62,029 nt of DNA, taken from assembly GCA_029339195.1 (NCBI GenBank), contig JAPTJF010000383.1, forward strand, positions 1 to 62,029, in the 5' to 3' direction. Source of the DNA: Micractinium sp. NFX-FRZ (lineage: Eukaryota > Chlorophyta > Trebouxiophyceae > Chlorellales > Chlorellaceae). Positions within the stretch are counted from its first letter, which is position 1. Each line of letters opens with the position of its first letter. The notes under the pieces were generated by a model, which searched no databases, was not told where the DNA came from, and saw only the letters and a program-made list of their open reading frames with translations. The position numbers and the translations under genes are program-made. This document shows positions 2,384 through 60,600 of this stretch, in pieces.

Positions 2384-5300
2384 TCATGTCGCATTGATCA
2401 CCTCACGCAGGACCTTGGCTGCTGGGGGTGCCGGCGCATCAAACTGGCAAAAGACGCGGGTCTGCGGGGTGGGGGAGCAGGCAGGCAGGCAGGCGGTGGT
2501 CAGCGCATGCATTGTCCCCTGGTTTCTGGGGCTCCAAGCTGCAATCCCATGCTGCCCTGTGCTGCCCCGTGCTGCACTGTGCTGGCCCCATGCTGCCCCA
2601 CCCACCCACCCACCCACCCCGGCCCCGCCCCCACACACACCGCCCTGCATGTCCCCAGCACTACACACCCTGTGCTCACCTCTCGCACCCGCACCGTCAC
2701 GCGGCCCACAACCCCTCCTTCCCACACTCCCTACCCACCTTATCCCACTGTGCTCCCCAAACCAGGCACGGCCTATCCCCGGTCCCATCCCCCATCCCCT
2801 CTCCTCTCGCTCTCACCTCTCGCAGCCGCACCATCACGTGATCCACCCGCAGCCAGAAGCGCAGCAGCACGTACCAGCAGCGCGGCATCACACGCACCTG
2901 CACACGGGGATGGAGCGAGGGCATGGCCGACGTGGCACGTGAGACAATCAGTGCCGATGGTGGTGCTGCTGCTCCTGGTTCTGGCCTGCCAGTGGTGGCT
3001 GAGGCCCATGGCTATGTGTGCCCGCCCAGCCACCACAGCACACCACACCACACCACCCGCCCGCCTTCGAACTAGCGCCAATACAACGACACTGTCCATC
3101 TCCCTGCCCCGACCCGCCACCACACCCGCCGACCCACCCAGCAGTAAGGCACTCCGTCTTCTGATCGTTCCCACTTGAATCACATCTGAGAAGAGCAGCA
3201 GCGGCCATTTAGCTCACCTCACACACCTTGCCGCCGCACACAGGACACAACACCCACCATCACTCTGCCTCACTTCGCGCCCAGCACCCTCACGCTCCCA
3301 TGCCCCAACCGCGGTACCCACACTCACACCGACCAGCAAAGCACCAACACCCTTGCCATTCCCTTCCGCCCCGCCCTCCCGCCGAGCCTACCAACCTGCG
3401 CTGCACATACAGAACGAATGCGACATCCCCTAAAACACTCACTTTGACGGACACCCGGGAGGAGCCGTGGTCGTCCAGCTCAGACTCGCACAGCGCCAGC
3501 TCATCGTAGTACAGAATCGGATCGCGGCTGGTCAGCAGGCCCCGGTTGATCTGCTCGGAAGTTTGCTCCCATCTGAGTGATGATGGCGCGGGCGCCGCCG
3601 CTGCCTCCTGCCCTGGCTGCCCCGGCGGCGGCTCCTGCTGCTGCACGTCGCCGCCTGCTGCTGCTGCTGCTGCTGCTGCCTCTGCAGCTGGTGGCCCGTT
3701 GGCTGCTGCGCCGCTGCCACTGCTGTCGCTGCTGCTGCCGTCTGTGGGAGCCGTGCCGAGGCTGCCGGTGTAGGAGGTGGTGTAAGTCCTGCGGTGCGAG
3801 GCGGGCACAGGGGACTGGGTTGCCATGTGCAGGCAACTCAGGGGGAGCAAGGAAGGGTCGGCATCCTTGGTTCAGGTGCTCGCTGCAGACCCACCGCGCA
3901 TGCCAGCCAGCCAGCTGCTGCTGTGGTCACAAGGCTAGCTCAGCACGCAGACGAGTCGGCCCGCACACCCTGCTGCAGCGCCGCACTGCCCTCCCTGCCA
4001 GCCTCCCTTCCCCCACCCTTTGCCACAACCCTCGCTCCACCCTCTTGCCTAGGCCCTCCCTCACCAGTCGTTCTCCACCATCTGTTGCATGTGTACCTCG
4101 CAAGTCCTGCCACCACCCTTTGTTGACCACACCCCTCGCGCCCCCCCTTGCCTAGGCCCCCCTCACCAGTCATACTCCACCGTATGTGTACCTCGCACGC
4201 CCGGCTGGCGCCCTCTCTGACCGTGCCCTTGTTTCCCTCTTCCACCCCCCCAACCCCCCCCCCCCCACCCCCCCAACCCCCCAACCCCCACCCCCACCCC
4301 CCTCACCAGTCATACTCCACCGTCTGTGCCGCATGGGCCTCCACATCCTGCTGCCGTGCACGCATCCAGTCCTCCGACTCCCCCACACGCACCGGCTCTG
4401 CAGGCCAGTTTCAGGAAGGTCGGTGGATGAGGGTCGGTGCACAAAGGTCGGTGGGGCAATGTGCTGGCAGGCCATCAAAGAGGCGGCAGCAGGAGTGAAG
4501 GGTATGGCTGGGCAAGCGGCAGGGGAGGGAAGGCGATGCAGTGGCCCAAGAGCGAGCTGAGTGCCCCGTCTTGAGCTACAACAGTATCTGGTCTAGCGCA
4601 GCCGGGCGCTGCAAGGCCTGCCAGCGCTGCAGCGCACCTGACGTGTCGGCCAGCCAGCCTTTCAAGGCATCCAGCGCTGTGAAGCTGCAGGACGGGAGTG
4701 GGGCAGGGGGGCAGGTGCATTGTTGGGACCAGTACGAGCAAAGGATCCTGCAAACGGGGGGCTGGCTGCCTTGCACCCAGTCCAGCAGCAGCAACAGCAG
4801 CGAGAGCGACAGGCACGAGAGCAGCAGCAGTGCTGGCGACAGGTCTGAGGCAGCGGCAGCGGCGAAGGCGGCAGCGCAAACAGGGCGACGGCATGCACCC
4901 AGCAGCTGCAGCACAGCATGCTCATGCCGCTGCCCGTAGGCATCGATGTAATTGATTGATTGATTAGGCAGTAGCAGGCGAGACACAGCACTACCTACCA
5001 CCCAGCAGCAGTGCAGCGGCAAGAAATCACAAGGGAAAGGCAGGCACCTGATGCTGGCGCCGCTGGCCTCCCACCATGCATGCCAAGGAACGGCATTACC
5101 ACCCAGCCGCAGCGCGGCAGGCAACAAAACAGAGCAAGATTATATTAACAAGAGCAACGCAGGCACCTGATGCTGGCGCCGCTGGCCTCGTGCGTGAGGC
5201 GCAGGTAGTTGTGCCCGTAAAACTGCTCGGGGGCGGCCAGCGCCCCCAGGCTGTGCTTGAGCTCCTCCAGCTCAGCATCGGCTGCGGAGGGAATTGGGGA

Positions 5301-6171: not shown

Positions 6172-9100
6172 ATGGCAGAGGCACCCTGCCCAGCGCCCCC
6201 GCTGTCCAAGGCCGACAAGCAGGAGCAGCCTTTCCACGAGGCGGCGGCAGCGGCGGTGGCCGACCTGCCGTCCGTGGCAGACCCAATTCAGGTGCACACT
6301 GCGCAGCCCGGTCAGCAGCTGCGCTGCGGCGCCGGCGTGGGCGCTGCGTTGTGCATAGTTTGTGGAGTGCGCACTTGTCTGGGGCGCGAGGGTATCGAAA
6401 GTTAAAACATGGGGAGCAGACCAGGTGGCTGGCGCATATAGCCTCGCAGCCTAACCGCCCACCAGGGGGTGTGAGCAGCTGGCGTCTGCGCCGCCACTCT
6501 TGCCAGCACTCCACCGCCCGCCCGCCCGCCCGCCTGCCCGCCCCACGCTGTCCGCCTGTGCAGCGTGCGCGGGACCGGGCTCAGGGCGTCAACTTCCGTG
6601 ACCTGCACACCGTGGGGGGCGTCATCCAGCCGGGGCGCGTGTACCGCAGCAGCCAGGCGAGTTGGAGGGCCACGAGGGGAGGAGGAACAAACAAAGAAAC
6701 AAAAGGGAGCAAGGGGAAGAGCACACAAGAGCGGTGGGTCGCGCCGTGTAGGGGGGGCATCCAACCGGGGGGCGTGCACCGCATCCATCCAGGTGGGTTG
6801 GGAATGGGGCAGCAGCAGTCAGCGGTTGGAGGCGGAGCGTGTGGCAACCACGGCGGAGTGGAAGCATACTATGGGGAAGGGCAGTGGGGGCTGCCGTCCC
6901 CCGAGGGTCCAAGGGGATCTGCCCTGCCGAGAGGATGGGTGGGCAGGGTTGCGCACCCATGTGCAGGATTGCCTGTGGGGACGCCTGCACGGCCACGCCC
7001 TGGCGCACCGCCGCACGGCTGTGCTGGACCTGAACCGCACCAAATGCCTTCAACCCTACCCACCCACCCACCCTCCCTTGCACACACCCTCACCAAGCGC
7101 CTTGCCTCCATAAAGCTTCTTCCTAGCGCGCTTGATAGCGGGGTTCTGATTGTTATCCAAGGATTACGTTGTTATCCAAGGATTACAATCCAAGGCCTCT
7201 ATCAAGCGCGCTAGGAAGAAGCTTTATGGAGGCAAGGCGCTTTGTGAGGGCACTCAGGACTGCAGCGTGCGGCTCCATGTTGGGCAGGCCTCTCCTGCAG
7301 CAGGCCCAACATGGAGCCGCACGCTGCAGTCCTCCAGGGCCTGTCCAAGAAAGGGGGGCAGAGGTGTAAACCAAAGGTGTGTCGGCAGGTAAGTGCAGGC
7401 AAGGTGTGTCCTCAAAGTACGGGAGTTGAGGCCTGCCGGCTGGGGTCGGGTACGTGAGCTGGACTGCGAGGAGCAGTTGCACGCGGGGGCCATTACAACA
7501 AAGGTGCCCCACACACATCCAGTTAGGACCCACGCACCCATCCTTCCCCCACCCCCCGCAGGTGGTGAGCGCTCGGGAGCTGGAGTCGCTGGGTGTGAAG
7601 GCGGTGCTGGACCTGCGCCAGCCGGCGGTGGGGTGCAAGACGGAATGCGCCAACATACGGCAGGCGCTCAGGTGAGGGGGAAGGGGAGGCGACGAGGGGC
7701 GCGAGTAGGGAGATGCCCGTTGCTGCGGGCTGCAAAAAGGGGTTTAACACACGGGCAGTGCCAGTCCTGCGGGCGGGTGGGGTGCAGGACGGGGGGGGGC
7801 CAACCATATGGCAGGCGATGACGTGAGGGGGAGAGGTGGCCGCCCCCGCAGGGCGGCAGCCAACCCAGCAACCGGAAAGGTGAAGGGTGAATGTAGGGGG
7901 CTGCCCGTCGGCTGCGGGCTGCAAGGACCAGAAGCGCCGACGGACATGCACGAGCGGGCAGTTAGGCGGGACGGGAGGCTAGGTCGAGGCATTGGTGGGG
8001 GATGATGCTGTCTAACGAGTGCTGCCCTCATGGTTGCTGCAGCACGTGCTGTCTACCAGCCAGGAAGCGGGGGTGGGGCACCTTACAACGAGGTAGTGCA
8101 CATACATGCTGCCCTGCCCCCGCCCTGCTGCGCAGGCGCAGCTGCTGGGGCTGCTTCGGCTGGCTGCAGGGGCTGCTGGGGGGCGGGCGCTACGCGCGCG
8201 GGCGGCACAGCAGCGGCAGCAGCAGCGGCAGCGGGGCGGAGCCGGCGCCAGCGCCCTGCCACCGCTGCACCCAGGACACGTGCGAGCACTATGGCATCCG
8301 TGCACGCGTGTACCATGGTGGGCGGGCGGGTGGCAGGATGGGAGCCCACTGTTGAGGGTGGCAGGATTTCAAGCGTTGTGGGCCTGCCACGTCAGCACAC
8401 CGTAAAAGCAGGGGGCAGCACTTCCTGGGCACGCACACCCCACCTCCTGCCCCCACTTCCCTGCCCAGTCCTGCGTGCTGCTGCTGCGCATTCACTGGGA
8501 GCTGCCGTGCGGCCTCCCCTGACGCCCCAAGCCTCGTTCCCGCTGCCTCCCCCCCATCTGCCCCCTCTGCTCCGGCGCCACCCCCCGCTTCCCCCCAGTG
8601 GACCTGCTGCCCACCCGCGTGTCGCTGCGAATCCTGTGGGAGCTGCCGCACTGGGGGTTGTCGGTCTCGAGGGGCCTTGCCGCCCCTCTGTTCTGAACCT
8701 CACTCCACTCTCCCTCTTCCCCCCTTCTCCCCCTTCCCCCCCCCCCCGCCCACCCCCCTCACCAATGGACCTGGCCTCCCTCTCTTACTCTCACTTTCCC
8801 CCTGCCCCCTCCCATTTCTTCCCTTCCCAGTGGACCTGCTCCCCACCCGCGTGTCGCTGCGCATTCTGTGGGAGCTGCCGCGCGGCCTGCAGGCGCGCGT
8901 GCTGTGGGCGGCTGCGCGCCGGAAGCACCCCGAGCCGATCGTGGCGGGTCAGTGGGTGTAGCAGTGGGGAGGGTGGGTGCATGCACACCCCTTGGCTACA
9001 GCTCTGTTCGCGAGCTGTGCTGTGGGCGGCTGTGTGGCGCACAACCACTTTTGCACCGATTGTGGCGGGTCAGTGGGGGAGTGGCATGCATGTGTGCCCA

Positions 9101-10936
9101 GGCTCCCTGGGGCGGGTGGCTTCCCTGCACAGCCTTGGCTGCAGCCTTGAGCAGGCGCGCCTTGAGCAGGCGGCTGCGCGGCGGAGGCACGCAGAGCCAA
9201 TCGTAACGGGTCACAGCGGGAAGGCACTGGCCTGCTTGCAGGCCGGCAAACCAGCAGGGGATGGGGCCGGTGGACGCACGCCGGCGATTCCACAGGCGGC
9301 AGCAGGTGCCGTCGGGGGTTGCCAGCCTGCACTTGCCTGCGTGGCACTCTGCCCCCCGCCCCCCCACCCACCCACCCTTACCCCTTTCCAGAGCTGTCTT
9401 TCCACGCTGTCCCTCCCAACCACTGCCCCTCCCTGTGCCGTCCCTCCCTGCCGCCCCCCCACGTGAGCTGCAGGCGCAGTGGCCGACCCTGAGGTCATGG
9501 GGTACCTGAAGCTCTACACACTGCTGCTGGAGCGGGCGCAGCCAGCGCTGGCGGCCGCGCTGCGCCTGCCCGCCGACCCCGCCAACTTCCCACTCCTGGT
9601 GCACTGCATCCACGGTGCGGTTTCGGTTGATGGCAGGGACAGGGCAGGTGGTGACAGGCGTTGAGGGGTGCTGGAGAGGGTGGCATGCCCCTGCCGGTGC
9701 ACTGCATCCATGGTGGGGTGCGATGTGATCATGGCAGCTCCTGGGGACAGGGCAGGCGGTGGCAGGGGCGTTGAGGGGTGGGGAGAGGGCGACTTTCTAC
9801 CGCTGGTGCACTGCATCAACGCTGGGTGCAGTGTGATAATGACAGGTTTGGGTGGGCTGCCGCAACCTGGAAATCATGGTGTTGCTGCTGCCGCTGCCGG
9901 TGCCGCTGCCACTGCTGCTGCCACCGCTGCCACTGCCGCAGCTGCCGCCGGGGGTGCTGCACTGCCACTGCTGGGACGGGACACTCAACTACCAGTGCTC
10001 TGCCCCGTTTGACGCTGCAGGCAAGGACCGCACCGGCCTGGTGGCCATGCTCCTCCTGCTGCTGTGCGGGGCAGACCGACAGGTGGGAGGGCGGGGCGCC
10101 AATTGGGGCGTAGGGTGCCGCGCTGACATCATGCCGGCGGTGCAGGTTGCTTTGCACCGGGCTGGGCTGGGCTGGTGTGTGCTGCCTGTGGTTGCAATGC
10201 CGCCCGTGCCGGGCCTGCCCCCATCTGGAACCGGTTCATGCTGTGCATGATGTGCCTGCTGTGTTGTGCAGGCTGTGGGTCAATACTATGCCCTGTCCGA
10301 AGCGCTGCTGCTGTGCTGTGGTGTGCCGCTGCTGCGCCTGACATGCCTGCTATGCCTGCTGTGCCTGCTGCGCTATGCAGGCTGTGGTTCAGGACTATGC
10401 CCTGTCGGAGGCGCTGCTGCTTGAGAGCCGGGAGAAGCGGGAGCTGCTGGGGCTGCAGGAGCACCTGACCACTAACCAGGTGGGAACCAGAGGCAGCCCT
10501 GCACATGAGTGAGTAGCACTACTATGGAGTGACCTATGGGCATGCCTCATCAATCATTACCTGTCGTTATCGAGGGGCACACACATGTGGGTGGCTGGGG
10601 CCATGAGAAGCGGGGGCTGCTGGGCCAGCAGGGGTACCTGACCACCAATCAGGTGGGAATCAAGGGCTGGCACGCATTACTGTAGGGGAGGCGTGGGGTT
10701 AGTCAGGCCCCGGCTGCTGGAGTGTGGGCAGAGCAGAAAGCCTCACAGCTTTAAATAAAAGGCAAAGAAACTGAAAAAGTTGGAGGTGGTGGCGGAAGTG
10801 GCACTCCAAAATTGAAGCAGGACGGTTGAGGAGCTGCGCTACGCGGAAGCCCGCGACTGCCTGACGCCGGTAGCCGGCGAGGGCCCCCCCCACCAGGGGG
10901 CCCACACCTCTGCTTGCAACCCACTGCCAAGGCCGC

Positions 10937-10967
<31 letters not shown>

Positions 10968-31624: not shown

Positions 31625-32930
31625 TCACTCTTTCTGCGGCGCCAGCTTCTGGTCCACCACAACAATCTTGCAGCGTTCTACCGTAACCTCCTGCTCATCC
31701 CGCCGCGTGCTTCCCTGCAGCGCGCAGCACAGGAGCCAATGTGGTGGGTGGCGAGCTATGGGACGGGTGCGCAAGTGCCACCTCCCGCTCATCCTGCAGC
31801 GCGCTGCCCGCACCACACACAGAGCGGATGGCGTGTGTGCAGCAGCACAGCGGGGTCAGGTGCACGTGTCCAACACAGCGAGATGAAAAGGCAGGCAGGG
31901 CTATGTGGGGTGTACAAGCAAGACTGCCGGACCGCAATGAGGTGGGATGGAGAGGCGTGCAAGCAGACTAGCTGGCTAGCAACTTGCCGGGATGGCCAGC
32001 AAAGGCAGGGCAGGACGCGCAGGCACAGAACAGCACAAGTGCAAGCACAGGGCAACAAGTGCGGGCAGGCCGGCGGGGTGCGCACCTGTGTGGGCGCTAG
32101 CCTGAAGGTTGCGTCCGACAGGATGAAGGTCCACACCTGCAGGGCAGAGGAGATGGGAGGCCGGGGGTTGTTGAGGGACCAGTATGGGCAAGCGTGGTGC
32201 CGTGTGTGCAGAGCCAGGGCACGTCTGTTTGCTCCTCCTGCCTTCCACTACCCTCAAACGTCTCATCTTTGTTGACAGCGGCGTACGCAGCAGCTGTTCA
32301 TCTGGGCAACGCTTGCACGCACTGCCCAGTGAAAGAGCCAACTGAGGCCAGCAGGGCAGCTATGATTGAAGTGAAAAACGAGCATGTGATGGAGCAGAAG
32401 CGGGCAGGCGCAGGGCGGGGCAGCATTAGCAATGGACTCAGCACCCAGCCTCCGGCAGGGCGGGAGGGCAGCACGCACGTTGTCGCAGTAGCGGTAGATG
32501 TCCAGGTGGCCCTTCAGGTTGGCCTTGGCCGTCACCTTGTTCTCTAGTGCATCCAGCACGACCGTGTCGTACTGCGGGGAGATGCAACGCAGAGCAGAGC
32601 AGGTGCGGCGGTGTGAGCAGCGCAGGCGGGAGGGGGCAGGCGGCAGCCGGCCAGGCAGGCAGGAGACCGGCCTTTGTCGCGGCCAGCCTATCGTCTATGA
32701 CGATACCGCAGGACACCAGGCTGCTGGCCGAGCACAAAGGTCCCTGCGCGCGTCGCGGCGCCATCGACACGGACGCCTGCAGGGCTCCCCGCTGGTCTGC
32801 GACGGCCCACCTCATCCAGAATGCGCAGCGCCAGTTGCGGAGGCAGCTTGCCCTCCTCCACCAGCTGATCGAGCGCGTCCACCAGCGAGAGCCCCAGCTT
32901 GGTCTGACGGTACAGAGCGGAGCAAGCCAT
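31625..32930 (-). CDS. Transcription initiation factor IIA, gamma (small) subunit
   Basis: A 117-aa TFIIA small subunit, which helps TBP bind the TATA box in RNA polymerase II initiation (nucleus). Four exons: 32930-32811, 32571-32479, 32136-32086, 31714-31625. The N-terminal helical domain is clear (MACSALYRQTKLGLSLVDAL, LVEEGKLPPQLALRILDE), as is the C-terminal beta domain (LKGHLDIYRYCDNVWTFILS, DATFR). The end, EVTVERCKIVVVDQKL, matches the family's last strand. Length is close to the usual 105-115 aa. The initiator Met begins the family's normal N-terminus. Intron 3 has a copy of the exon 4 acceptor region (plus-strand 31783-31805). Confidence 0.95.
31686..31806 (-). repeat. Copy of the TFIIA exon 4 5' part in intron 3
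   Basis: Plus-strand CACCTCCCGCTCATCCTGCA at 31779-31798 resembles exon 4 (AACCTCCTGCTCATCCCGCC at 31685-31704). On the coding strand this gives a decoy CTGCAG|GATGAGCGGGAGGT. Confidence 0.7.
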
Positions 32931-45149: not shown

Positions 45150-48100
45150 ATGCAAGCTATGGCAGCCCAGCGCTGCGGCATGGCGGGCGCCGTGCGTGCC
45201 AGCGGCAGCAACGCCACCGCACGGCCCGCCAGCGCACGACCCGCTGCCTGGGCGCGCCCGCAGCCGCACCGCCGCCCGCAACAGCTGCAGCATGCGCAGC
45301 GAGGCAGCCTGGCTGCTGCTCACGCCTTCACCTCCCCTCTGGCCAGCGTCGCCATCCAGCCCTACCCAGACCCCTTCCCGGAGCTGCAGCCAGGGGACGA
45401 TCTGGCAGATGAGTATGGCAACCCGGGGCCCAACCCGCCCAAGCACCGCCGGGCGGGCGTGGTGCTGCACCCCACTTCGCTGCCCGGCAAGTACGGCATG
45501 GGGGAGATTGGGGCAGAGGCGTACCGCTTCGTGGACTGGCTGGCGGAGACCGGCATGCAGCTGTGGCAGGTGGGTGCTTGGGCAGGGGGCGCGGCGGGGG
45601 GTGCGGAGGTGGCAGGCGCTGGGGGGCTGCCGGCGGGCGTCGCCAGTACGTGGGTGCTGCGCTCTTGGGTGCTGCCTGCATGCTGCTGGCGTGTGCCTGC
45701 TGCCCCAGCCACCTTGGGCACACCAAGCGTGCTGCTGCATGTCCTCATTGCCGGCAGACCCCTCCAAGCAACATTCCTCCTGCTGCCACTCCCACCGCCC
45801 TTGCACCTGTGCTGCCGCCCTTCGCCCCCCCATGTACCATACGTGTTGCGCATCTTCACGCAGCTGCTGCCCCTGATGGCCTCTGATATCACCTTCTGAT
45901 CACACGGCAGCGCAGCCTGGCTGCCCGTGCAGGCACCACCCTGCACCAGTTCCCTTGCCCACGCCCTCCCCCCTGTGCCCCCGCCCGTGCCCCTGCCCAG
46001 CTGCTGCCCCTGGTGCCGCCGGAGACCACCTTCTGGTCACCCTACAGCGGCCTGGACGCGCTGTGCGGCAACACCCTGCTCATACCCATTGAGGAGCTGC
46101 ACCAGATGGGGCTGCTGGCAGCGGAGGAGGTGCCGGAGGAGGCGCCGGTGGAGCTGCATGCCGACTTCACGGCGGTGGCGGCCTGGAAGGTGGGGCGGTG
46201 GGGTGGGGTGGTTGTGGGGTGGTGGGGTGAGAGCCAAGGATGGTGGTGGCCTGGGAGGTGGGGTGGTGGCGGTGGTGGTGGTGGTGGGGTGAGAGCCAGG
46301 TGGAAGGGGGCCAAGGATGGTGGTGTGGAAGTCTGGTTGCCTGGGCCAAGGATGGTGGTGGTGGAGCGATGGCCGAGGATGGTGGTGGCTGAATGAGGTG
46401 CTACAGTCAAGGGGGAGGGAGAGGCTGGGAGACAGAGAGTGCTTGGTGCAACTCGGGCGATAGCAGCATGCAAGGTGCGTGAGTGCATTGCGAGACAGTG
46501 CACGCGCCGACCCACCTGCTCCTTCGCCCCACCCCCTCATCTGCCCACCCACATCTGCCCCACCCCCTCCGTGCGCCCGCAGCTGCCGCTGCTGGACAAG
46601 GCGGCGCAGCGGCTGCTGCACGGCGACGGCTTTGACGCGCTGCGTGCGGAGATGCAGCAGTTCCGGACGGACAATGCGTGGGTGGAGCAGTCAGCGCTGT
46701 TCAGGTGTGTGTGTGGACGGTGCGGTTAAGGTGTGTGTGTGTGAGTGTGTGTCTCTAGGCGAATTTTCTGTTGAGCCCCGGTCGGCGGCGCCCCCGCAAG
46801 GAGCAGGGGCGGGCCCGAAGCCCTGCAAAAGCAGATGTGTGTGTCTATGCGTGGGTGTCTGTTTGTGTGGTAGAGCCGTGGGGCTGGTGCCGGAGTGGCT
46901 GCCCATGGACGTGGCGCAAGTCGGGTGCATGATGAGGCGGTGGTTGATCGGGGTTGGGACTGGAGGTGCAGGAGTGCATGACTGGGAATGCGTGGGCGGT
47001 TCAGTCGGTGCTGCTCAGGCGGGGCAGGGTGGAGGCATGAGGCAAGGACAGCAAGCAGGCGACACTCAGGCGGGGCATGTGACTACCGCTGCCCAGCTGG
47101 CCGCCCTGACTGTGCCCAGCCTGCCCGGCTGCTGCCCTGCCTGCCCAGCTGGGTGCCCTACTGCCGCCCCCTGTCGCCCGCCCGGCCCTGTTCCCGCTTC
47201 CTGACCTCGCCATGCGCCTGCGCCCCGACCACGCCGTGCGCAGCGTGCTGACTGAGCAGCCTGAGCTGGAGGGAGAGGCCTGGTGGGACTGGCCCGCCGA
47301 AGTGCGTGACCGCGACCCAGACACACTTGCCAAGTAAGGGGAGGCCGCGAAAGCAGCTTGATGAGAGTGTAAAGGAGAGCGGGATTGGGGCTGCTGCACT
47401 TGATGACTGCCGGCTGGAGGGGTGGCCTGTGAGGGCAGGCGCACCGCCAAGCGGCTGCGGGTGGGTGCTCTGCCTGGCGCATGCAAGCGCCTGGCCGGGG
47501 GGCACTGGCCAGGCAACCCTCTCTCGCCAGCCACCCTGCCGCCTCCCTCCCCATCTTCCACTGCCCCAGGGTGCGCCCAAATGCGTTGTCGCGTTGTGCC
47601 CACCATGCGAACCACATCAACACCTTCATGTGCCCTTCTGCCTGCCTACAGCACCTTTTCAGAGCTTCCTGTCCCTCTTGTCACCCCTTCCCGGCTGCCC
47701 CAGGGTGCGCACCGACAACGTGGACCGCATCAACTCCTTCATCGCCCTGCAGTTCCTGTTTGACCGATTCTGGAAGCACCTCAAGGTGAGGAGCAGTGCT
47801 GAGAATATATGAAGGGGGGATGGGGTGGAGGAGGGAGGGAGGGGAAGAGTCGGGGGAGGGGGGGTGGGGGAAGAGGGAAGGGAAGAAGGAAGAATGTGGC
47901 AAGTGAAGGGACAGCTCGGGCCTCGCACTGCCGCCTCTCCGCAAGCCAAGCCACTCCGCCCCGCCCCACCCATTCCTTACCCCCCTTGCCCCGACTTCAT
48001 GGCTGATGCCGCCGCATGTGGCTGCAGGGGGATGGTGGGAGCCACGTGCCTTCCTACTGTCCACGTAACTCCCACGCCCCCTCACTGCCCTTGCTGACCC

Positions 48101-50911
48101 GCCACCGCTGCCACCCCTTCGCCCATCTGCAGGCGTACGCCAACGCGCGCGGCATCGGGCTGGTCGGCGACATGCCTATCTACGTAGGCGGGCAGAGCGC
48201 GGATGTGTGGGCAAACCGCGACCTTTTTGAGCTGCTGCCCGATGGCAAGCCGGCACTGGTCAGGTATGTGTGACGGGCAGGCAGCACCAGAGGTGTAGGC
48301 CAGCTGGGCGCTGGCGGCAATGAGGCAGGCAGAAGTTCTGCTTGCCAAGGGCAAGCCGGCGCTGGGCGGGCGGGCAGGTGGGCGGGCCTGGTCGGCTGGA
48401 TGGCGCCCCCACCATCATCACCCCCCAATCGCTCCCTTGCCCCCTTTACACTAGATGGCGGCCCCACCCTCATCACCCCTCGCGCCCCCCCCTTGCCCTC
48501 CCCATCCCACCCTTGGCAGCGGCGTGCCCCCGGACGCATTCTCCGCCACCGGCCAGCTCTGGGGCTCCCCCCTGTACGACTGGAAGGCGCACGCCGCCGA
48601 GGGCTTTGCCTGGTGGCGGCAGCGCATCGCGCGCAGCATGCAGCTGTACGACGAGACGCGCATCGACCACTTCCGCGCGTTTGCGGGTTACTGGGCGGTG
48701 GAGGCGGATGCCGAGACGGGTGGGTGGCACCCATTGTGTTCAGTGCCCAGTAGGGCGAGTGGTGGTGTGGGGTTGACGGGTAGGTGCCCGGAAGTTTCGA
48801 ACGTGGGGCCAGGCGGGCACATGGTGAGGGACGGCCAGGCGCGGGGCCAGGCGGGCAGAATGGGGCAGGGGCATGCGGCCGTAGCATGGCCGGGACCAGG
48901 AAGAACAGCTGCCTGATGGGCTCTCCACCCTTAGACCTCCTCCCTATGTCCTCCCTACCTCCCTCTGCCCTATGACCTCCCCACCCGTGTGCACCCGCCT
49001 GTCCGCTCCCCCTGCAGCCATGGTGGGCACCTGGAAGAAGGGGCCCGGGGTGGCCCTGTTTGAGGCGCTGGAGTCGTCACTGGGGCAGGTGCCCATCCTG
49101 GCAGGTGGGTGGGCACACTGCCTGCTGGCTTTAGTGCCGGCTGTGGCAGCGGTTGTGGTGTACTGAGTGTTGGGTTTGGTCCCGTCTTGGCAGTGGTTGC
49201 CTTTGCGTGCCTGGGTGTGGTTCCGGCCTTGGCAGTGGGCTGTTTTGCGCTGCGTCTTGTGTGCTGTTTGCATGAACAGCAGGCTGCGAGTGCAAGGGTC
49301 GGGGGCCTTGTTTGAGGCGATGGAGTGGACACTGGCCCAGGTGCACGTTCTGGCAGGTGGACCTCAACATCAGTACATCCCCTGCAGAGGACCTGGGCGT
49401 CATCACTCGCGACGTCACCGAGCTGCGCCAGGCAATCGGCGCCCCCGGCATGGTGGTCCTGCAGTTTGCGTGGGGCGGGGGGGCCACCAACACCCACATG
49501 CCGCACAACATCTACGAAAACTGCTTCGTCTACCCCGGTGAGTTTGTTGGTACAGCTTTCACTGTGAAGGCCTACTTTTGGAAGTGCTTGTTGTCTACCC
49601 CGGTGAGAGGCTTCTGTGTGTGTGTGGTGTGTATGCGTTCGTGTGGTGTTTGTGTGTGGTGGTTGGAAGGGGGGGAGGGGGCCGCTTCGGTTTGGCAGTG
49701 GACATTAGTGTGGCTCCGGCTACTTGGCCCGGCGGCGGAAGCACAGTGCGTGGGGCCACGGCAGGCCAAGGGCCAGGTGTCGAGTGCAGGCTCCCCACAG
49801 CTGGGTCCTGCCGTGCTGCTGCCTGCCCGCCTGCCCGGCCCTCCCCTCCTGCGCTACCCGCTGTCACCGCACCCACCACCCCTCCCATCCCCCACCGCCC
49901 CTCCGCAACCCCACGCAGGCACGCACGACAACCAGACAGCTGTGGGGTGGTGGAAGCAGGGGGCCCAGGTGGAGGAGCGGGCGCTGATCCGGCGGTACAC
50001 CGGCATGACCGGTAAGCGTGTGTGGGCAAAAACGCATATGACACACAGAAACATCAGCATCACTGCCTGGGCGGAAGCCGTGTAATTGTGGGGTGAAGAC
50101 CTCCTCCTTTTTAATAAAGGCAACAGCATCCACCACTTTCAGGGGCGGGAAATGGCTGCCCCTCCCCACGGGGTCACAGGGGCGGCACGCTTCAACAGCC
50201 TGCACCGTGTTCCTGTACTTGCTTGCTGCAGACGATGACGTGGCGTACAGCTTCATCCGTGAGGCGCTCAGGTCGTGCGCCCAGACCGCTGTCGTCACCA
50301 TGCAGGTGGGGTGGGTGCGGGTGGGGCGGCAGCAGAGGTGCTGGTGGGTGCGGTGGGGGTGCGGGATCAGGGCGGCAGTGCTGGGGAGGGGCGGTCTGGG
50401 TATTGGTGCCTGTCAGGGTGGGGCGGGGCCACGGGCTGCGGATGTGGCTCCTCCCCAGGGCTGTGCTGGGCTAGGCTTATAAGAGGTGGTTCCTGGCCTG
50501 CTGTTGTCTCCCCACAGGGCTGCCTCTGCCTGTTGAATGCACCCGCACCTGCCCCTCTCTGGCCGCTCCCCTACCCCCCCCCTCCTGACCCCAGGAAGTC
50601 GTGCACGCACCACCTGTCCTCCCTCTGCCCCTCCTGCCTCTTATCACACGCCGCCCTCCCCCTTCTCCTCCCCCCTCCTCCCCCCACCCCAGGACGTCAT
50701 GCGCCTGGACGACACCGCCCGCATGAACACGCCTGGCCGCGCTGAGGGCAACTGGACGTGGCGCGTGGGGCACAGCGACGTGTGGCGCCAGCTGGGAGAG
50801 GAGCAGGCACAGCTGCGGATCTGGATCCAGCAGTACGATCGTGCCCCGCCCGGCGGCGTGCGCGCGCCGCCAGCACACCCCGGCCGCGCTGGCGGCATTG
50901 CGTTCCACTGA
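45150..50911 (+). CDS. DPE1: 4-alpha-glucanotransferase, plastid disproportionating enzyme
   Basis: A 618-aa GH77 enzyme that transfers glucan chains between malto-oligosaccharides in plastid starch metabolism. Twelve exons: 45150-45569, 46001-46189, 46583-46704, 47244-47333, 47704-47785, 48133-48263, 48520-48719, 49018-49104, 49388-49537, 49919-50011, 50232-50305, 50693-50911. The first 65 or so residues are Ala/Arg/Ser-rich and fit a chloroplast transit peptide. Motifs: VLHPTSLPGKYGMGEIG, PLVPPETTFWSPYSGLDAL, GDMPIYVGGQSADVWAN, SGVPPDAFSATGQLWGSPLY. Catalytic residues: nucleophile Asp394 in RIDHFRAFAGYW, acid/base Glu441 in AEDLGVI, and Asp494 in GTHDN. Start: ATG 45150, with a second in-frame Met 9 nt later. 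Six introns contain exon-edge copies. Divergent from eL6. Confidence 0.97.
45857..46050 (+). repeat. Copy of the DPE1 exon 2 acceptor and 5' end
   Basis: CGCAGCTGCTGCCCCTGATG at 45859-45878 and ACCTTCTGATCACAC at 45891-45905 resemble the exon 2 start (CCAGCTGCTGCCCCTGGTGC ... ACCTTCTGGTCACCC). Confidence 0.9.
46670..47022 (+). repeat. Copy of the DPE1 exon 3 3' end in intron 3
   Basis: AATGCGTGGGCGGTTCAGTC and GGTGCTGCTCAG at 46987-47018 resemble the exon 3 end at 46674-46704. Confidence 0.85.
47560..47770 (+). repeat. Copy of the DPE1 exon 5 acceptor and 5' half
   Basis: CTGCCCCAGGGTGCGC followed by ACCACATCAACACCTTCATG (47561-47630) parallels exon 5 (CTGCCCCAGGGTGCGC, ACCGCATCAACTCCTTCATC). 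It reads as a diverged pseudo-exon. Confidence 0.9.
49042..49366 (+). repeat. Copy of the DPE1 exon 8 3' half and donor in intron 8
   Basis: About 70 nt at 49293-49362 (GGCCTTGTTTGAGGCGATGG ... CACGTTCTGGCAGGTGG) mirror exon 8 at 49048-49107 (GGCCCTGTTTGAGGCGCTGG ... CCATCCTGGCAGGTGG). Confidence 0.95.
49513..49612 (+). repeat. Copy of the DPE1 exon 9 3' end and donor in intron 9
   Basis: GTCTACCCCGGTGAG at 49593-49607 exactly repeats 49528-49542; upstream GAAGTGCTTGTT versus AAACTGCTTC also matches. Confidence 0.9.
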
Positions 50912-52388: not shown

Positions 52389-52393
52389 TGTAA
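52389..52393 (+). terminator. Poly(A) signal TGTAA for the 128-aa protein gene
   Basis: TGTAA lies 16 nt after the stop codon. A second TGTAA at 52687-52691 is a possible distal site. Confidence 0.5.
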
Positions 52394-53029: not shown

Positions 53030-56000
53030 TCACTCCCCCAGCTCCTCCAGCAGCGCCTCCAGCTCATCCTCGGGCTGCTGCACCTTCTTTCCCTCCGCAG
53101 CAGCAGCTCCAGCAGGGGCATCCACCTCCATCTTGTCCCCCAACTCCTGCTGCTGCTGCTGCTGCTCCTCCTCCCCTGCCCCTGCTGCCGCCCCCTCTTT
53201 GTCCCCTCGGCTGCTGCGCTCCTTGCGGTCGCGGCTGCGCGAGCGCCGCCGCTCCTTCCGCTCCTTGTGGCTGCTGTGCCGGTGCTTGCTGTGCTTGCTG
53301 CGGTCGGCCGAGCGGCTGCGGCTGCTGCGCCGCCGGCGCTTGTCGCGGCTGTCATCCCGCCGCCGCCGCTTGTCGCGGCTGCGGCTGCGGCTGCTGCGCC
53401 GCCGCCGCACGTCCCGCTCCCGGCTCCTGCTGCTGCGCCGCCGGCGGCTGTCCCGCTCCCTGTCCCTGTCCCGGCTCCTGCTCCTGCTGCGCCGCCGCCG
53501 CTCGCTGCCGCCGTTGGCCGCTGGCGCCGGCGCAGGCGCTGGCAGCCCCCCAGCCAGCCTCCTGGACAGTGCAATGGCGGCAGCAAGGGCAGCCGACTTC
53601 TGGGAGTCATTGTCCTGAGGCTTGGTGGGCATGGGCGGCGGCGCCACGCCGGTGCGCTGTGCTGCCCGCATGGATGCCACCTGCTCTGCCAGCGCCTGCT
53701 GCTGCTGCTGCATCAGCTGGAACTGCTGCACCTGCTGCACCTGCAGCTGGAAGTAGGGGCTGTTGAGCTGCGGGGCAAGGGAAGGGGGGGAACATAGGAA
53801 GCGGTCAGTGCTGCGCGTTAGCTGGAACTGCTGCACCTGCGCCGGGAAGCGGCCATTGAGAGACACACAAAAGAGGCCTCCCCCTGCACCCCAGTGGGCG
53901 TCCACTGCACCTGCCGCCTGCTCAACCGCGCCTGCCGCGTCCACCCTCCCGGCCTCCCAGCCTGCTTCCCCAGCCAGGAGAAATTAGCAACAAGGCAGCC
54001 ACACACCTGGCCCCGCATGGCAACCGCATACGCCGCTCTCTGCAACCTCCACCCTTACAGCCCAACACTTGCTCATGCCCCTGCCTTGTCATGGAAAAGA
54101 AATGCTAAACTGCCCACCTGGACCTGCATGGCCACTGCATCCGCCGCCTTCTTGGCCTCCCGTGCCGCCTCCACCCGCAGCACCTGCCCCATCAGCGTCG
54201 GCGCCTTCAGCTCCAGCGCCGCAGCTGCAGGGCGCGAGGGAGGGCAGGGTACTAATGCGTTACTGATACATCTTTGAATCCAATGGACATGCCCCTGCAA
54301 TGGTGTGCCCTTTACAGCCAGCGCCGTGTAGCAGTGGAGGCCTGTTGACTCACGCGATATCCCACCCACCGGCCCCACCCCGTGCATCAGACCTGCAGTC
54401 TTTTTTTACCGCTCTCAGACATCAAGCACTTCTCGCGAGCACTGGAACTCACTGAACGCCAGGCAGCTGCCCATGGCCGCCCCAACTCTTCCATCACCCA
54501 CCCAACCCCCAACCCCAACCCCAACCCACCTGCTTCGCGCGAGCGGTGGAACTCGATGAACGCCAGGCCGCTGCCCACGCCCAGCAGCGTGCAGGTGCGG
54601 ATCCTGCCGCATTCCTTGAACACCTTCTCCACCTGCAGCATGTGAGGAGGAGGTGAGCAAGGTGAAACAAGACGGGTTCTTGGCAATGCAGGTGTGGACC
54701 CTGCCTAACAGCCTGGCGCTCTGTCCACAGCTACCCCCCCACACACAGCGGCCAGGAAACCCGCAAGAAGCCTCACTTCCCACAGGAGCACAAGTGAGTG
54801 CAGATTTCAGGGTTCCTGCGCCCACAGCAGCACAACTGTGTGAAGACTTCCGCGTGCCTATGCTGACTCACCGCGTCGGCGGTGGCCTCGGCAGGCACGT
54901 CGCCCACCACCACCATGTGGCTGGCTTGCTCGTCCGAGAGGGAGGGCGGGAACATCATCCCCGTCTGTGCCAGCTTGACGCCCTGCAGGCAGCAGAGGCA
55001 CAGGCAGGGGGAGGGTGGGCAGCAGGAGGGGGGCCGGGAGGCGGGTGAGTGGGGTCGGCGGCAGGGTGGGGTGCACGAGTGGCAGCGGGCAGGCAGGCGG
55101 GCGGGTAGCAGCGGGGGCAGGAAGGGAGCAGGTTAGTGATGGGTGTGGAGGCTGTGCTGCTGGCTTGTGGCCTGCCAGTGCTTCACCGAGCTGGCATCAA
55201 CCGCAAGCTGTGGCCCGCCGCGACATGTAGGACAGCAGGGCGCAGCGCAGCGCAACGGGGAGGGCAGGCGGGTGCGCCCCGCCTGGCGGTGCCTGCCTTG
55301 CCTTGCTGGGACTGCTGCAGCGTCTAGGCTGCTGACACCGGGCACAGGCGCGCCGCCTGCAGGGTGCGAGTGAGAGGGCGGGGCGCAGGGCACATGGAGC
55401 CAGCGAGCGCCCCAGCCAGCCAGCCAGCCGCCCACCCGCCCAGCCACCAACCGGCGTACTCATGTCCCTTGCCCAGGAGATACCTGTGCGCCATGACCTG
55501 GAGGCCAGCCAGCAAGCCGCGCAGCAGCAGCAGCAGCAGCAGGCAGCGGGTGCGGGGCCAAGTACCCGCCCGCCTGCCGGCCGGCACCGCAGGCAGAGCA
55601 GAGAGGCAGAAAGGCAGCACCCACCAGGGAGGTTTGTAGCGCCGGCTGGTCGGGTGGCAGCCCCATGGCCGCAGCTTCCGCAGCACCCAGCACTCCCGCC
55701 ATCGCTCCTCCCACCATCGTCGTCGCCTGCTGCGTCGCCGCCTTGATGGCATCCGCTGTCATCACGCCGTTGGGTGCCGCCGCGCCGGGCATCCCGCCTG
55801 CCTGCCCGGGCATCGCCGGCGGCGGCGGCAGCACGCCGGCTGCTGCTGCTGGCGGGGCTGCTGTGGGTGCTGAGAAGAAGATGGGAAAGGGGGAGTCGCC
55901 CAGGGCCTCTCCGTTCACCTCGATGTGCAGCTGCAGTGAAGAGGGGTGAGCAAGAAAGGAGGCACACAACGATTCTTATGAAGTGGGTGCTGAGAACGAG

Positions 56001-57341
56001 ATGGGGGAAAGGGGGGTCCCTCAGGGCTCCCTATTGACCTCAACACACAGCTGCAGTGATGATGAGCAGCCAAACAAAGGGGAGGCTTGTGAGGGTAGGC
56101 AGGGCGGGAGGGGTGACGGCATGGTTGTGGGTAGGCCGGTGGGCAGCGCTGAGCAGGCAGGCATAGGAGGGCTTGGGGCATGGCCACGGCGGCGCGCTGC
56201 ATGGGCGCAAGGAACTGCATGGGCGCAAGGAACTGCGCGCTGCATGCGCCGCCATGCTGGCAACGCTGCTCCGCAACCTACCAGCCAGCACTATTGCTGG
56301 CCACAGCCAGCCCAGCCAGCCATCCCGCTGCCTAAGCGGCACACACACACCAACAGACGACACTGCCGGCGTTCCGCCGCACCTGGCACGCTGCAACACC
56401 CCTTCTGTCAATATATCAGCCAGCCCCCCGCCAGCCCTTCCCATCCTGCCCAGCACCCACCTGGTAGTTGCCCTTTGTGGGCACCGAGTAGGAGGCTGTG
56501 TAGGAGCCGTTGCCGTGGTCCTCCACCTCAGCTTCAATGACATCGGGCTCCTGCTCCCCCGGCCGGGCCGCTGGCTCCACCATGACCAGTATGTGTGCGC
56601 CGCCCTCCCGCACCCGCTTGCCCGCCGCGTCGCGCGCCGTGATGGTGAGCTTCACCGGCTGCCCGGCGGCGGCGCCCGAGAAGCCCGGGCCGTGGGCGCG
56701 GCAGCGCGCGGCGTCGGGCGGCCCGGGGGGCGCGTCCGCCGCTTCCTCGTCGCCGCTCTCCTCGCTGTCGGACAGCTCCTTGGGAATGGGTGCATCGTGT
56801 GTGGCAATCTTAAAGTGAGCGCTGGGAGGGGCCTCCAGCATCAGCGGGTCCCCCGGCTTGCCGCCCTTTGCCTTGGGCTTCTCCTCCTCCTCATCGGGCA
56901 GCCCCGCCTCACGCCGCGCCTTGGCGCGCTCCTGCTTGGCACGCGTCTCTGCCAGGATCTGGGCCAGCAGCGGCGGCAGGTCGGGCACCTGTAAGGGGAA
57001 GAGGAGGAGGAGGAGGGGCAGGGCAGGGTGAGCAGGTAGGTGGCGGTGCGGCTTTAGGTGCCGCCTCCCGCCGCTCCCGCCACTGCAGGTCCCACGCTGT
57101 CCCGGCACGTGCCGGCCTACAGACCGTCCCTTCGTGTCTGGTGGCCTTTCTGTAGCCGCCCGCCCAGCCGCGACGGCAGGATTCGGCGCTCAGCAAGCGA
57201 CGCAAAGACAATCCAGCGCCTGTGGCTCTCGCCTGCACCTCCCGACCCTCTGAGCACCCTCCAACTGGAACTCACCCCCTCCATCTGCTTCTTCATCCGC
57301 TCCTCCGCCGTCTCCACCGGCACCAAAGCGCCGGCGTCCAT
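53030..57341 (-). CDS. Filamin-repeat, RRM and RS-domain protein
   Basis: A 652-aa predicted nuclear RNA-binding protein. Seven exons: 57341-57276, 56988-56461, 55930-55625, 54982-54872, 54632-54530, 54224-54118, 53767-53030. Domain order: a charged N-terminus; a filamin/ABP280-type Ig repeat at about residues 118-218 (PVKLTITARD, GNGSYTASYSVPTKGNYQLH, GEALGDSPFPIFFS); an Ala/Pro/Met linker; one RRM at about 320-395 (HMVVVGDVPAEATADAVEKV, GLAFIEFHRSREA, LRVEAA); a Gln-rich coil (QLQVQQVQQFQLMQQQQQ); and an RS domain (SRSRSRDRDRERD, RRRRSSRSR) with an acidic end (DELEALLEELGE). RRM plus RS suggests a splicing factor; the filamin repeat is unusual for that class. Exon 6 ends at CAG|GTGGGC; an alternative in-frame donor lies 6 nt upstream. 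Divergent from the NusG-like gene. Confidence 0.85.
53712..53850 (-). repeat. Copy of part of exon 7 of the filamin-RRM gene in intron 6
   Basis: Plus-strand AGCTGGAACTGCTGCACCTG at 53820-53839 repeats exon 7 sequence at 53715-53734. The copy lies upstream of the exon 7 acceptor. Confidence 0.85.
54428..54590 (-). repeat. Copy of the exon 5 3' end (RRM) in intron 5
   Basis: Plus-strand 54431-54477 resembles 54534-54577 (GGAACTC..TGAACGCCAGGC). On the coding strand the copy reads CLAFSEFQCSRE, a decayed GLAFIEFHRSRE. Confidence 0.9.
55863..56066 (-). repeat. 120-bp-spaced copy of the exon 3 acceptor and 5' end
   Basis: Plus-strand 55983-56066 parallels 55863-55946 for about 80 nt (GTGGGTGCTGAGAA, CAGGGC, CAGCTGCAGTGA). 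The copy carries a decoy CTGCAG acceptor followed by a frame broken by a stop. Confidence 0.9.
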
Positions 57342-57662: not shown

Positions 57663-60600
57663 ATGTATGTGGTAGCAAGCGGCCCCGCTGGGCTGGCCGC
57701 CACTTGCAGAGGCCCCCCCCGGTCCAGGAGGCTGGCACGAGTGTTTGCCGCCGCCAAGTCGGGCGACCAGGGCGCCCAGGATGTCAAGTCGGCACGGCTA
57801 TCCCGCATTCTGCGCCAGTACGAGGCTTCAGGTGGGGCAGCGGCAGCAGTGGCGGCAGGCGCCGCCGCCTGCCTGTTTGTCTCCACCCCACCTTGTCCTG
57901 TGCCGCTAGCTGGATTGCTGTGACCAGCACTGCTTGTGCATGGAATTTCCTACCCCCTGCACACACCTGTTTCAACTTGCCCCGCTCCACACCCCCACGC
58001 CTTTGCCTCCCCCACGCCTGCACCCACCCCCAGCCTCTGCTGCCTCTGAACCCCTCCCTGTCTCGCCTGCCCTCTGTTTTCAGGAGTGGAGAGGCAAAAG
58101 TCTGAGCTGGAGGCGTACATTGAGCAGCGCGAGGTGCTGCGCGGGGATCCAGAGGCGGTGGGGTCGGCCCGCGTGCTGCGTGCCTCTGCGGGCACCCGCG
58201 CCGGCGAGGAGCGCATCAACACAAAGATGGACATCTACATGCCCATGGGGCCAAACGGGTGTGTGCCTCCTGCACCATTGCTCATCCCTGTGTGTGTGTG
58301 TTGGGGTGTGGTGGTGCGGCGGATGCGTGGGTAACACGAAGATGGACATCCTTGTGCTCTTGGAGCTCTGCCTGAAACATCCCTCTGCTTTGCCCCCAGC
58401 CAGTGCTGCCCAGCATTGCTGCACGCCTTGCCTCCGCCCCTGCCTTGACTCCTGCCTCGCTGCCTGCGCCTCCCCTGGCTTCCCTGCAGCATCCGCAAGG
58501 CCAATGTGGGGCTGCACGGCAACGGGGAGCTGCACTGGTGGGCTCTCAACGTCAAGCCGGGGCGCGAGAAGCAGGTGAGCTGGCGCCACGCGGGCGCTGC
58601 CGGCGGAGGCTGGCCTGTCAGCGCGCGGTGCTGCGCTTGCTGAGGCGCCCTGGGGACCTTGAACGAGCGCACCCCAGCTTTGCCCATTCTCACCTCGCCC
58701 TGTGTTCCCCTCCCTGTGTTGCCCTCCCTCGCCAGGTGTGCGAGGCGCTGGAGCGCACGGTGCTGGGCCTGCTGGGCCCGCTGGAGCCGCTGGAGGAGGG
58801 TGGGGAGCCGCGGGAGCGCACCATCGAGACGTGGGCGCCCAAGAAGACGGTGAAAGGGTGGAACCCCAAGTGAGCTGAGTTGGTAGGGGTGATTGGGGAG
58901 GGGTGGGCTCCTTAGAAAGTGGGGTGAATGCTATGGTTTGGTTAGGTGTGAAGGGGATGGAGGCCTTAAAGGTATGGAACCCCGAATGATTGGGCAGGGT
59001 GTGTAGCTCTGTATTGACAGGTTGGTTTGACAGAGCTGAGCCCGTGCCCCGAGCCTCCTACTCCCTCCTCTGTTTCCTGGGCCAGGCAGGCGGGGCAGCA
59101 AACGCGCCGCGCCGCCCCGCCTTCTTCAGTCCCCCCCCCGCCCCACCCGCTCACTCACCCTGCTTGCTGTCCATGTCCCACCCCTTCTCCCCACATCCTT
59201 TCCTCCCCAGGACGGGAAAGATGGGGCAGCCAAGGCTCCACGCCATAGGCCGCGCGCAATGCCCTCCAACTCTTCGCCCTTCTCTTCTCAATCTCCCATC
59301 CATCATATTCTCCCCCCCCAGGACGGGCAAGATGGGCAACAAAGTGGTGCGCTACCCGGCGTCGTACAGCGAGGCGCTGGCGGGGGCGCCCAACGGCGGC
59401 TGGGTGTTTGCCCGCTTTGTGCTGGACCACGACCTGTCGGACCGCCTCAAGGCCAACCCCTCCTTCATGTGAGTGAGCAGGAGTGTGGTGGCTGTGACTC
59501 GTTGGAGTGCATGTGGGGGGTGCGGGCGGGATGGACGGGCTGCAGGTGTGCTGAACCAGGGTCTGGCGGGCCGCCTCAAGGCCAGCCCTCCCTTCTGGAG
59601 TGAGAGTGAGTATGCATGCCTGTGCGGGGGGATGGGAGAGAGCACGCGCATGCCTGTGTGTCCGGCAGCTGCTGTTACCTTCCGCAAGCCGGCACCATTG
59701 CTGACATCAGCACTCCTGTTGAGCACACGCAAGGGCTGTGCATCCTGTGTTGCTATCATTGCGTTGTTCATGAATCAAACCGTTGCCCCTCCCGCAGAAG
59801 CTGGCACCACTTTGAGCACTTTGGGGAGGAGACCAAGGGGGTGCAGAAGATGTCGGTGGTCTTCCCCAAGCCCTGCCCCCAGGACGTGCTGGACGCCGCA
59901 GCAGACGTGAGCTCCGCCTCCCTTGCCTGGTCTTGATTTTGATGGATGGAGTGTTAAGATGTCGTGGGTTGGGTGGGATTTTGGGGCACCACGGATGTGC
60001 ACGGGCAGGTTTGCATTGGGCGGCCAGGTGTGGCGGCCACGGGTGCTGATGATGAGGGCGGGGCGGGGCAGGTGGCAGGGCTGTGGCCCTCGTCTCCTTG
60101 GCTGCAGCAAGAGCGGGGCCTCCAGTGTTTGAGCATGTCTCACACACCGCACTCATAGCCACTACTCGGTGCCTAGCCCCCACCCTGCTGGCCCACCTGC
60201 AGTGGCAGCAGGGCCCGCAGCCGGCTGGGGAGGGCGCTTGCCACCCACTCCTTGTGCAAACCCCCAAGCTGCCCCGCTCACGTCTCCACCTTTGCGTTGC
60301 CCCTCCCTTCGCCCTGCCCTGTGCCTGCCTGCCTGCAGTGGGAGCAGGACATGGAGCCGACTGAGGAGGCGGCGGTGCGGGCGGCGCTGGACATCCCGGA
60401 GGAGAAGGCGCCTGCATGGGATTCAGAGCCTGTGGTGAGCACTGCCGTTTGAATTCACTCTCATCAGTTGCTAGCGGGGCCTTCCTGCCTCCAGTGGCTG
60501 GCTGTGCTGGCCCGCCGCTGCTGTGCGCTCTCGATGCTGCGCTGCTGGGGGCTGTGCTGCCCTGCACGCCTGGCTGCACCTGCCTGCCTCACGTCTGCTC

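Follow-up and report, generated by a model that had tools for sequence, protein, structure and literature searches.

Why should an intron hold worn copies of the edges of its own neighboring exons? The question is raised by a 62,029-nt contig of the green alga Micractinium sp. NFX-FRZ (JAPTJF010000383.1, assembly GCA_029339195.1), which was analyzed over its whole length and is hereafter called the window. A first-pass annotation of this DNA had described copies of an exon end with its donor, or of an acceptor with its exon start, inside the adjoining introns of at least ten of twelve genes. Here we find that about one in six of the introns tested, in the window and at other loci of the same genome, carries such decayed copies. 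They probably stem from recurrent tandem duplications of about 110 bp that span a splice junction and that splicing is predicted to tolerate.

Tandem duplication is an established source of new introns (PMC3443670, PMC4974935). In Chlamydomonas and its relatives, median intron lengths are 198-343 bp, and the mechanism behind intron length in green algae is described as likely ancient, with the advantage of long introns unknown (PMC8226300). The available text of that paper, which covers the Chlamydomonadales, mentions no duplication mechanism.

Results

Exon-edge copies are local, direct and widespread

We examined the window (contig C383) together with 25 further 10-kb loci on other contigs of the same genome (66 Mb, 838 contigs), labelled L001-L025, which gives 26 loci and 312 kb. 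A hidden Markov gene finder was trained on this same sequence. Of 717 predicted exons, 564 were kept, and 153 were removed as short, weak or beaten by an exon on the opposite strand. The models contain 453 predicted introns (90 in the window) with a median length of 262 nt; predicted donors mostly read CAG/GTGNG and acceptors TGCAG/G, the slash marking the junction. Pfam and PDB searches found RPL6e, GT49, tyrosine phosphatase, kinase and TIP41 domains in five of the six spliced window proteins submitted. A 615-residue model of DPE1 (plastid 4-alpha-glucanotransferase) aligned to plant DPE1 over residues 75-593 (E 9e-165), with identities of 81% to Micractinium tetrahymenae, 82% to M. conductrix and 84% to Chlorella variabilis. 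The domain and DPE1 matches therefore support the gene models.

As probes we used 45 nt of each exon end or exon start and compared them to the adjoining intron, counting a score of at least 16 as a match. Tested were 440 of the 453 introns, those of 80-1000 nt (13 fell outside this range); the window contributes 87 introns and 174 junctions. Exon-end probes matched their own intron in 51 of 440 cases and exon-start probes in 37. Length-matched pieces of other introns (mean of ten) gave 1.2 and 1.3 matches per 440, the inverted own intron gave 0 and 1, and the far edges of the same exons, used as probes, gave 1/308 and 0/310. The 88 matches are spread over 78 introns, and 21 of the 26 loci have at least one. 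In a stricter set, in which both flanking exons score at least 12, 27/178 and 19/178 introns match. The first-pass annotation had called the copies local and directly oriented and had suggested searching introns with the edges of their flanking exons against controls. A search of this kind on 440 introns returned strong enrichment, with direct matches far above inverted ones and own introns far above pieces of other introns, the comparison by which locality was judged.

A scan that makes no use of gene models gave a similar picture. Ungapped direct repeats were collected at shifts of 20-419, with low-complexity positions (about 19%) masked, and 239 segments were found in the 312 kb against 8 expected, the expectation being scaled from 2 segments seen in 100 distant shifts. 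The highest count, 48, lies at shifts of 100-119. Exon-edge copies are thus real and present beyond the window, across the sample.

The window is a favorable sample of this genome. It is about twice as rich as the other loci, with a copy at 30 of its 174 junctions compared to 58/706 elsewhere (Fisher p 0.001). Window controls gave 0.0 (exon ends) and 0.5 (exon starts) for other introns and 0 and 0 for inverted introns. The exon-edge copies are direct, but inverted repeats of other kinds exist: a self-comparison of the window lists 14 direct and 6 inverted pairs less than 0.5 kb apart. By the probe test, copies fall in nine of about twelve gene models (by our assignment of coordinates). A tenth model (31.6-32.9 kb, one testable intron) has a copy only in the annotation-free list, and two others, at 35.9-39.8 and 51.4-52.4 kb, had none that reached the threshold; the earlier figure of at least ten of twelve genes was about right. 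The exact 30-bp copy named in the annotation, in the TIP41-like gene, is also correct: the source consists of the end of a minus-strand exon (5167-5281) and 7 nt of donor, and the annotation-free scan lists the same repeat as 5029-5070 at shift 119. This case is not among the 30 of the window because the next exon failed the exon filter.

Dispersed introner-like or transposable elements, chance similarity in low-complexity DNA, or assembly artefact might be invoked for a GC-rich genome with many simple repeats, and we regard this group of explanations as extremely improbable. Hardly any matches came from other introns or from inverted strands. The DPE1 stretch 48520-50305 and a copy-bearing intron of locus L024 match only themselves in the genome, and matches of the phosphatase gene elsewhere fall, among the 40 of 107 candidates scored, in CTG/CGG-rich repeats. 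Nor do the copies resemble doubled reads, since most depart from their source by several percent.

The copies look like non-coding relics that often keep a splice site

In the window the identity of copy and source lies between 1.00 and 0.75, and the lowest value in the sample as a whole is 0.69; the matched stretches measure 16-45 nt, and 8 of the 88 copies reach 0.95 or above. The claim that the process is ongoing was thus borne out in part: the spread of identities agrees with it, and the best-fitting simulation described below, which lacks the youngest class, speaks against it.

Differences from the source are about equal across codon positions (178/1076, 177/1076 and 201/1073). All but one of the 45 gaps break the frame, and a frameshift or stop is present in 36 of the 88 copies. 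The equal codon-position differences and the frame-breaking gaps show that the copies are not under coding constraint. We rejected tandem exon duplication and mutually exclusive exons on these same grounds, the nearly uniform frame-breaking of gaps and the lack of a codon pattern.

Along the copies, identity is about 0.8 in the exon part, 0.67-0.84 over the first six intron bases on the donor side or the last four on the acceptor side, and about 0.57 beyond. Splice-consensus bases outside the probe, and so not chosen for matching, are also kept. That existing junctions are copied, as had been proposed, holds in that copies often carry the splice site of the neighboring exon edge. Many of these are candidate decoy sites, again in line with the annotation: 22 of the 51 copied donors and 17 of the 37 copied acceptors reach or exceed the 10th-percentile score of predicted real sites, a level that 2% of random intron positions attain.

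A preferred period of about 110 bp

Periods range from 66 to 314 bp with a median of 115, and 40 of the 88 copies lie 90-119 bp from their source. Two or more copies were found at 29 junctions, with a maximum of 4, the most that the search sought per junction; later copies were counted at lower scores (12.5 or 13), so a few of the resulting 121 copies may be chance. Some of the longer periods are second rungs of a ladder. The idea of repeated short duplication is supported by these direct, local and sometimes multiple copies. We rejected a minisatellite array as the source, since at most four copies, the limit of the search, were found per junction and the units are diverged.

Breakpoints of the copies are blurred by decay. 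Alignments span the whole unit or more in 39 of the 88 pairs, and in 13 of these they stop no more than 15 nt from the unit edge, a count without a control for chance extension. The intron parts of the unit were compared in 68 of the 88 pairs, leaving out periods above 160 and short intron parts. They are similar at p<0.05 in 18/68 pairs compared to 2/68 for inverted sequence (combined p 8e-12). In nine introns stacked by unit, chosen for having several copies, repeated units can be followed by eye, with homologous intron halves riddled by insertions and deletions. A model in which only the exon edge and splice consensus are copied as filler was rejected: it predicts similar intron parts in 3% of pairs, compared to 20-23% seen in the 64 of 88 pairs kept for comparison with simulations, and the stacked introns oppose it too.

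The position of the copies also bears on whether these introns were born by tandem duplication of an AGGT-bearing exon segment, in the manner proposed by Rogers, with the copies as remains of that birth. Tandem duplication within genes is common to both accounts. Birth of this kind would set an exon-end copy against the acceptor and an exon-start copy against the donor, however, and only 3 of the 88 copies lie within 50 nt of that place; many also hold an inner splice site at the copied junction. We consider this origin very unlikely.

Splicing and reading frame as a filter

All 15 direct repeats that lie wholly in exons, at shifts of 70-149, have a period that is a multiple of 3; ten of them belong to one RGG-type protein repeat, which leaves six independent loci. 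Junction copies have periods with remainders 0, 1 and 2 in 25, 35 and 28 cases, so that 25/88 are divisible by 3. This contrast suggests, from sequence periods, that the junction copies are kept out of the message. DPE1 has five copy-bearing junctions, and the proteins of six relatives show no insert there; for three of the six, the source contig measures 2.2-2.4 kb, close to what a spliced message would have.

Introns lengthen with copy number, and genes differ

Median intron length is 248.5, 333, 484, 448 and 603.5 nt for 0, 1, 2, 3 and 4 or more copies (n 362, 48, 22, 6 and 2), with a slope of 80 nt per copy, so introns are longer where copies are found, as the annotation had it. When the periods are subtracted, copy-bearing introns have a median of 232 nt, not distinguishable from the copy-free ones (p 0.10). 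The further claim that this is a main way in which introns expand is unproven: with 121 copies in 130,758 nt of intron, recognizable units come to about one tenth of the intron sequence.

Copies are uneven over the 43 gene models with at least four introns each (0 of 5000 permutations were as uneven). Models at L017 and L001, with 30 and 23 short introns (medians 182 and 191 nt), have no copies at 60 and 46 junctions, and models at L004 and L024 have copies at 10/28 and 11/36. We compared copy rate to six features of these models, with p values uncorrected. It correlates with the median length of all introns (rho 0.69) and of the copy-free introns alone (rho 0.35, p 0.02) in these models. Coding score per nt, which represents codon bias only weakly, also follows copy rate (rho 0.47, p 0.002); intron GC, exon GC and exon length show no relation across the 43 models. 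Longer copy-free introns in copy-rich models would fit older units that have passed beyond recognition.

Is the junction special?

For a comparison of classes we merged repeats less than 80 bp apart into events, giving 57 exon-intron, 27 intron-intron and 3 outside gene models, with 9 mixed and 8 exon-exon events left out. Twenty of the 27 intron-intron events lie near an exon-intron event. The simulations take in the geometry of placement, the loss of frame-breaking copies within exons and a source exon under constraint; the best fit to the intron-half data was obtained when exon-derived relics decay at about half the rate of intron-derived sequence. With this setting the expected shares are 0.51-0.68, 0.31-0.20 and 0.19-0.12, compared to 0.655, 0.31 and 0.034 seen. 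Allowing faster intron-derived decay therefore explains the excess of junctions over intron interiors in the model, and a process aimed at junctions would not be needed. The faster decay may come from slippage in the G-rich or C-rich ends of introns, or from mild conservation of the relics.

Copies and other repeats in the window

Coordinates of the copies in the window are collected in Table 1.

Table 1. Copies of exon edges inside adjoining introns of the window, with the position of the source edge and the distance between the two.
Feature	Position	Strand	Source	Period (bp)	Basis and remarks
Exon-start copy	1994..2029	-	1753-1788	241	probe test
Exon-end copy, donor GT kept	2680..2709	-	2817-2846	137	probe test
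Exon-end copy, donor GT kept	4167..4188	-	4307-4328	140	second copy at 242
Exact 30-bp copy of exon end and donor, TIP41-like gene	5041..5070	-	5160-5189		119 bp into intron
Exon end and donor copy, tyrosine phosphatase gene	6748..6792	+	6612-6656	136	probe test, Pfam
Acceptor and exon-start copy	8599..8643	+	8831-8875	232	93% over 45; further copy at 375
Exon end and donor copy	9169..9209	+	8907-8947	262	nearer copy at 121
Ladder of exon-end copies	9636..9845	+	9585-9614		at 98 and 207; 108-bp units, 78% match
Acceptor and exon-start copy	10272..10312	+	10381-10421	109	probe test, alignment
Exon end and donor copy	10608..10652	+	10435-10479	173	probe test, alignment
Exon-end copy, kinase gene	15536..15579	-	15821-15864	285	probe test
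Exon-end copy	22717..22751	-	22860-22894	143	probe test
Exon end and donor copy	23324..23348	-	23442-23466	118	probe test
Exon-end copy	24102..24131	-	24357-24386	255	probe test
Exon-end copy, GT49 gene	28649..28689	+	28506-28545	144	probe test, Pfam
Exon-end copy	29088..29116	+	28996-29024	92	probe test
Exon-start copy	30624..30659	+	30717-30753	93	probe test
Exon-start copy	31780..31809	-	31686-31715	94	83%; annotation-free scan only
Exact 16-nt exon-end copy, donor GT kept, RPL6e gene	40869..40884	-	40966-40981	97	
Acceptor and exon-start copy, DPE1	45864..45903	+	46001-46040	137	probe test
Exon-end copy, DPE1	46980..47018	+	46666-46704	314	probe test
Exon-start copy, DPE1	47599..47636	+	47712-47748	113	probe test
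Exon-end copy, DPE1	48338..48365	+	48232-48259	106	probe test
Exon end and donor copy, DPE1	49312..49356	+	49060-49104	252	probe test
Exon-start copy	53821..53860	-	53725-53767	93	probe test
Exon end and donor copy	54007..54041	-	54118-54152	111	weaker further copy at 230
Exon-end copy	54429..54470	-	54533-54574	104	probe test, alignment
Exon-start copy	56008..56041	-	55886-55921	120	probe test
Exon-end copy	58333..58366	+	58218-58251	115	probe test
Exon-start copy	58620..58646	+	58752-58777	132	probe test
Exon-end copy	59555..59595	+	59426-59466	129	probe test, self-comparison
Acceptor and exon-start copy	60203..60233	+	60339-60369	136	probe test

The window also contains repeats of other kinds. 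About two units of a 120-bp tandem repeat lie inside an intron of the kinase gene (12804-13018), with no exon-edge copy listed there, and an in-frame, alanine-rich 33-nt repeat occupies 16915-17188 in the exon upstream of the kinase domain. An intron of the phosphatase gene holds two inverted repeats at 7087-7333, one matching its own reverse complement at 86% (7087-7250) and the other at 83% (7256-7333); no further genome copy of them was seen among the 40 of 107 candidates scored. A long RGG-like in-frame protein repeat with 33- and 66-nt units runs from 60711 to the contig edge at 62029 and accounts for ten of the fifteen exon-exon repeats.

Discussion

The copies, their direction and distance, their pattern of decay and their link with intron length are observed. 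To account for them we propose head-to-tail duplication, across a splice junction, of a unit of some 80-145 bp that includes both exon and intron sequence. Splicing is predicted to go on using the outermost site, which would leave the mRNA unchanged; the intron would become longer by one unit, and a non-coding relic would remain of the inner exon edge with its site. This relic would then decay while selection holds the source exon, so that exon-derived parts would stay recognizable longest. Further rounds would give ladders and longer introns. Inside exons, frame-breaking duplications would be lost and in-frame ones kept. Adjacent single-strand breaks or patch repair in plants would give short direct tandem copies; what causes the breaks here, which site is spliced, and that each copy records duplication of a whole unit, we infer.

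Several results weigh against this account, and duplication of the whole unit followed by fast decay of its intron halves is its weakest link. Intron parts are similar in 20-23% of pairs, compared to 34-61% in neutral tandem simulations under ten settings; only 6 of 29 copy-copy pairs have similar intron parts; and in 49 of the 88 pairs the alignment falls more than 15 nt short of the unit. Similarity near the junction is flat, at 0.56-0.61 for every exon identity, even above 0.95, and the 6-mer offset profile is broad and uninformative. Part of the drop in identity at the junction follows from the choice of pairs by exon similarity. Third codon positions of the source differ at 0.187 compared to 0.165 for first and second positions, slower than free synonymous change would have it.

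The simulations add to these difficulties. The plain model, with uniform duplication and equal decay, failed, expecting 13.2 : 15.2 : 9.0 events compared to the 57 : 27 : 3 seen, and the difference in decay rate that mends the first two classes is assumed without independent cause, as is the lack of the youngest ages. The fitted ages predict 67/1723 young intron-intron pairs, compared to 7/29 young segments seen. Outside gene models, direct repeats make up 3/87 events compared to 12-19% in the calibrated simulations; this shortage, at shifts of 70-149, is possibly linked with transcription. The strong differences between genes also have no explanation in the account.

The failure of the equal-decay simulation is what would be expected if the process were aimed at splice junctions, for instance at exon-intron borders prone to breaks or R-loops, or by template switching, and so copied junctions preferentially. 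We think this rather unlikely. With faster intron-derived decay, calibrated on other data, the first two observed shares fit, and in-frame repeats of similar period (99-138 bp) occur inside exons at five loci. Intron-intron repeats, too, have a local maximum at 100-119 (12/61), though most of these lie near an exon-intron event.

The assumed difference in decay bears on another possibility, that selection maintains the copies, whether as spare or decoy sites or as splicing enhancers, or that gene conversion from the exon does so. The best-fitting simulation halves the decay rate of exon-derived parts, and these parts look conserved relative to their flanks even between copies (22/29 compared to 6/29 pairs similar), although that comparison is biased, both copies being chosen by their match to the exon. 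Good sites persist in the 22/51 and 17/37 copies noted above. Yet the donor GT of the copies (0.84, 0.69) is no better kept than nearby exon sequence (about 0.8), and neither codon positions nor the 44/45 frame-breaking gaps show the mark of constraint. Maintenance of this kind is, in our judgment, unlikely. Recurrent tandem duplication across the junction, with the relics decaying afterwards, remains the account we prefer.

A bolder extension of that account, possible but in our view doubtful, is that introns of this algal lineage grow by a quantum of about 110 bp in a ratchet that is tied to transcribed gene bodies and strongly specific to the gene. Splicing would conceal each junction-spanning unit, and worn exon-edge units, mostly no longer recognizable, would make up much of the intron length of "hot" genes.

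Known cases resemble the present one in part. In a potato RdRp gene, the duplicated unit ran from the 3' part of an intron through the acceptor into the start of the following exon, as here (PMC4974935). There a single event made a new intron, whereas here existing introns would lengthen at many loci of one genome, with the inner junction predicted to be ignored. The same paper notes an 83-bp tandem duplication within an intron. The model of Rogers (1989), as related in PMC4974935 and PMC3443670, likewise involves a short internal tandem duplication with splice signals, but in it an exonic AGGT is duplicated and an intron created, whereas here the duplicated segment already holds a junction. 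Gao and Lynch (2009, cited in PMC4974935) found duplication within genes to be common, including that of whole introns; the lasting products here differ in being partial exon edges in introns with a preferred period of about 110 bp. Among the top-listed results of our searches of the open literature, neither exon-edge relics on a genome-wide scale nor the lengthening of introns through tandem duplications across junctions turned up, a weak negative with most subscription papers outside its scope.

The copies point to a measurable process that would lengthen introns stepwise, which bears on the long introns of compact green-algal genomes. It leaves datable relics and many decoy splice sites, and the differences from gene to gene make its cause testable. 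Because one of the two copies is held still by selection, exon-derived relics could serve as an internal clock for neutral intron evolution.

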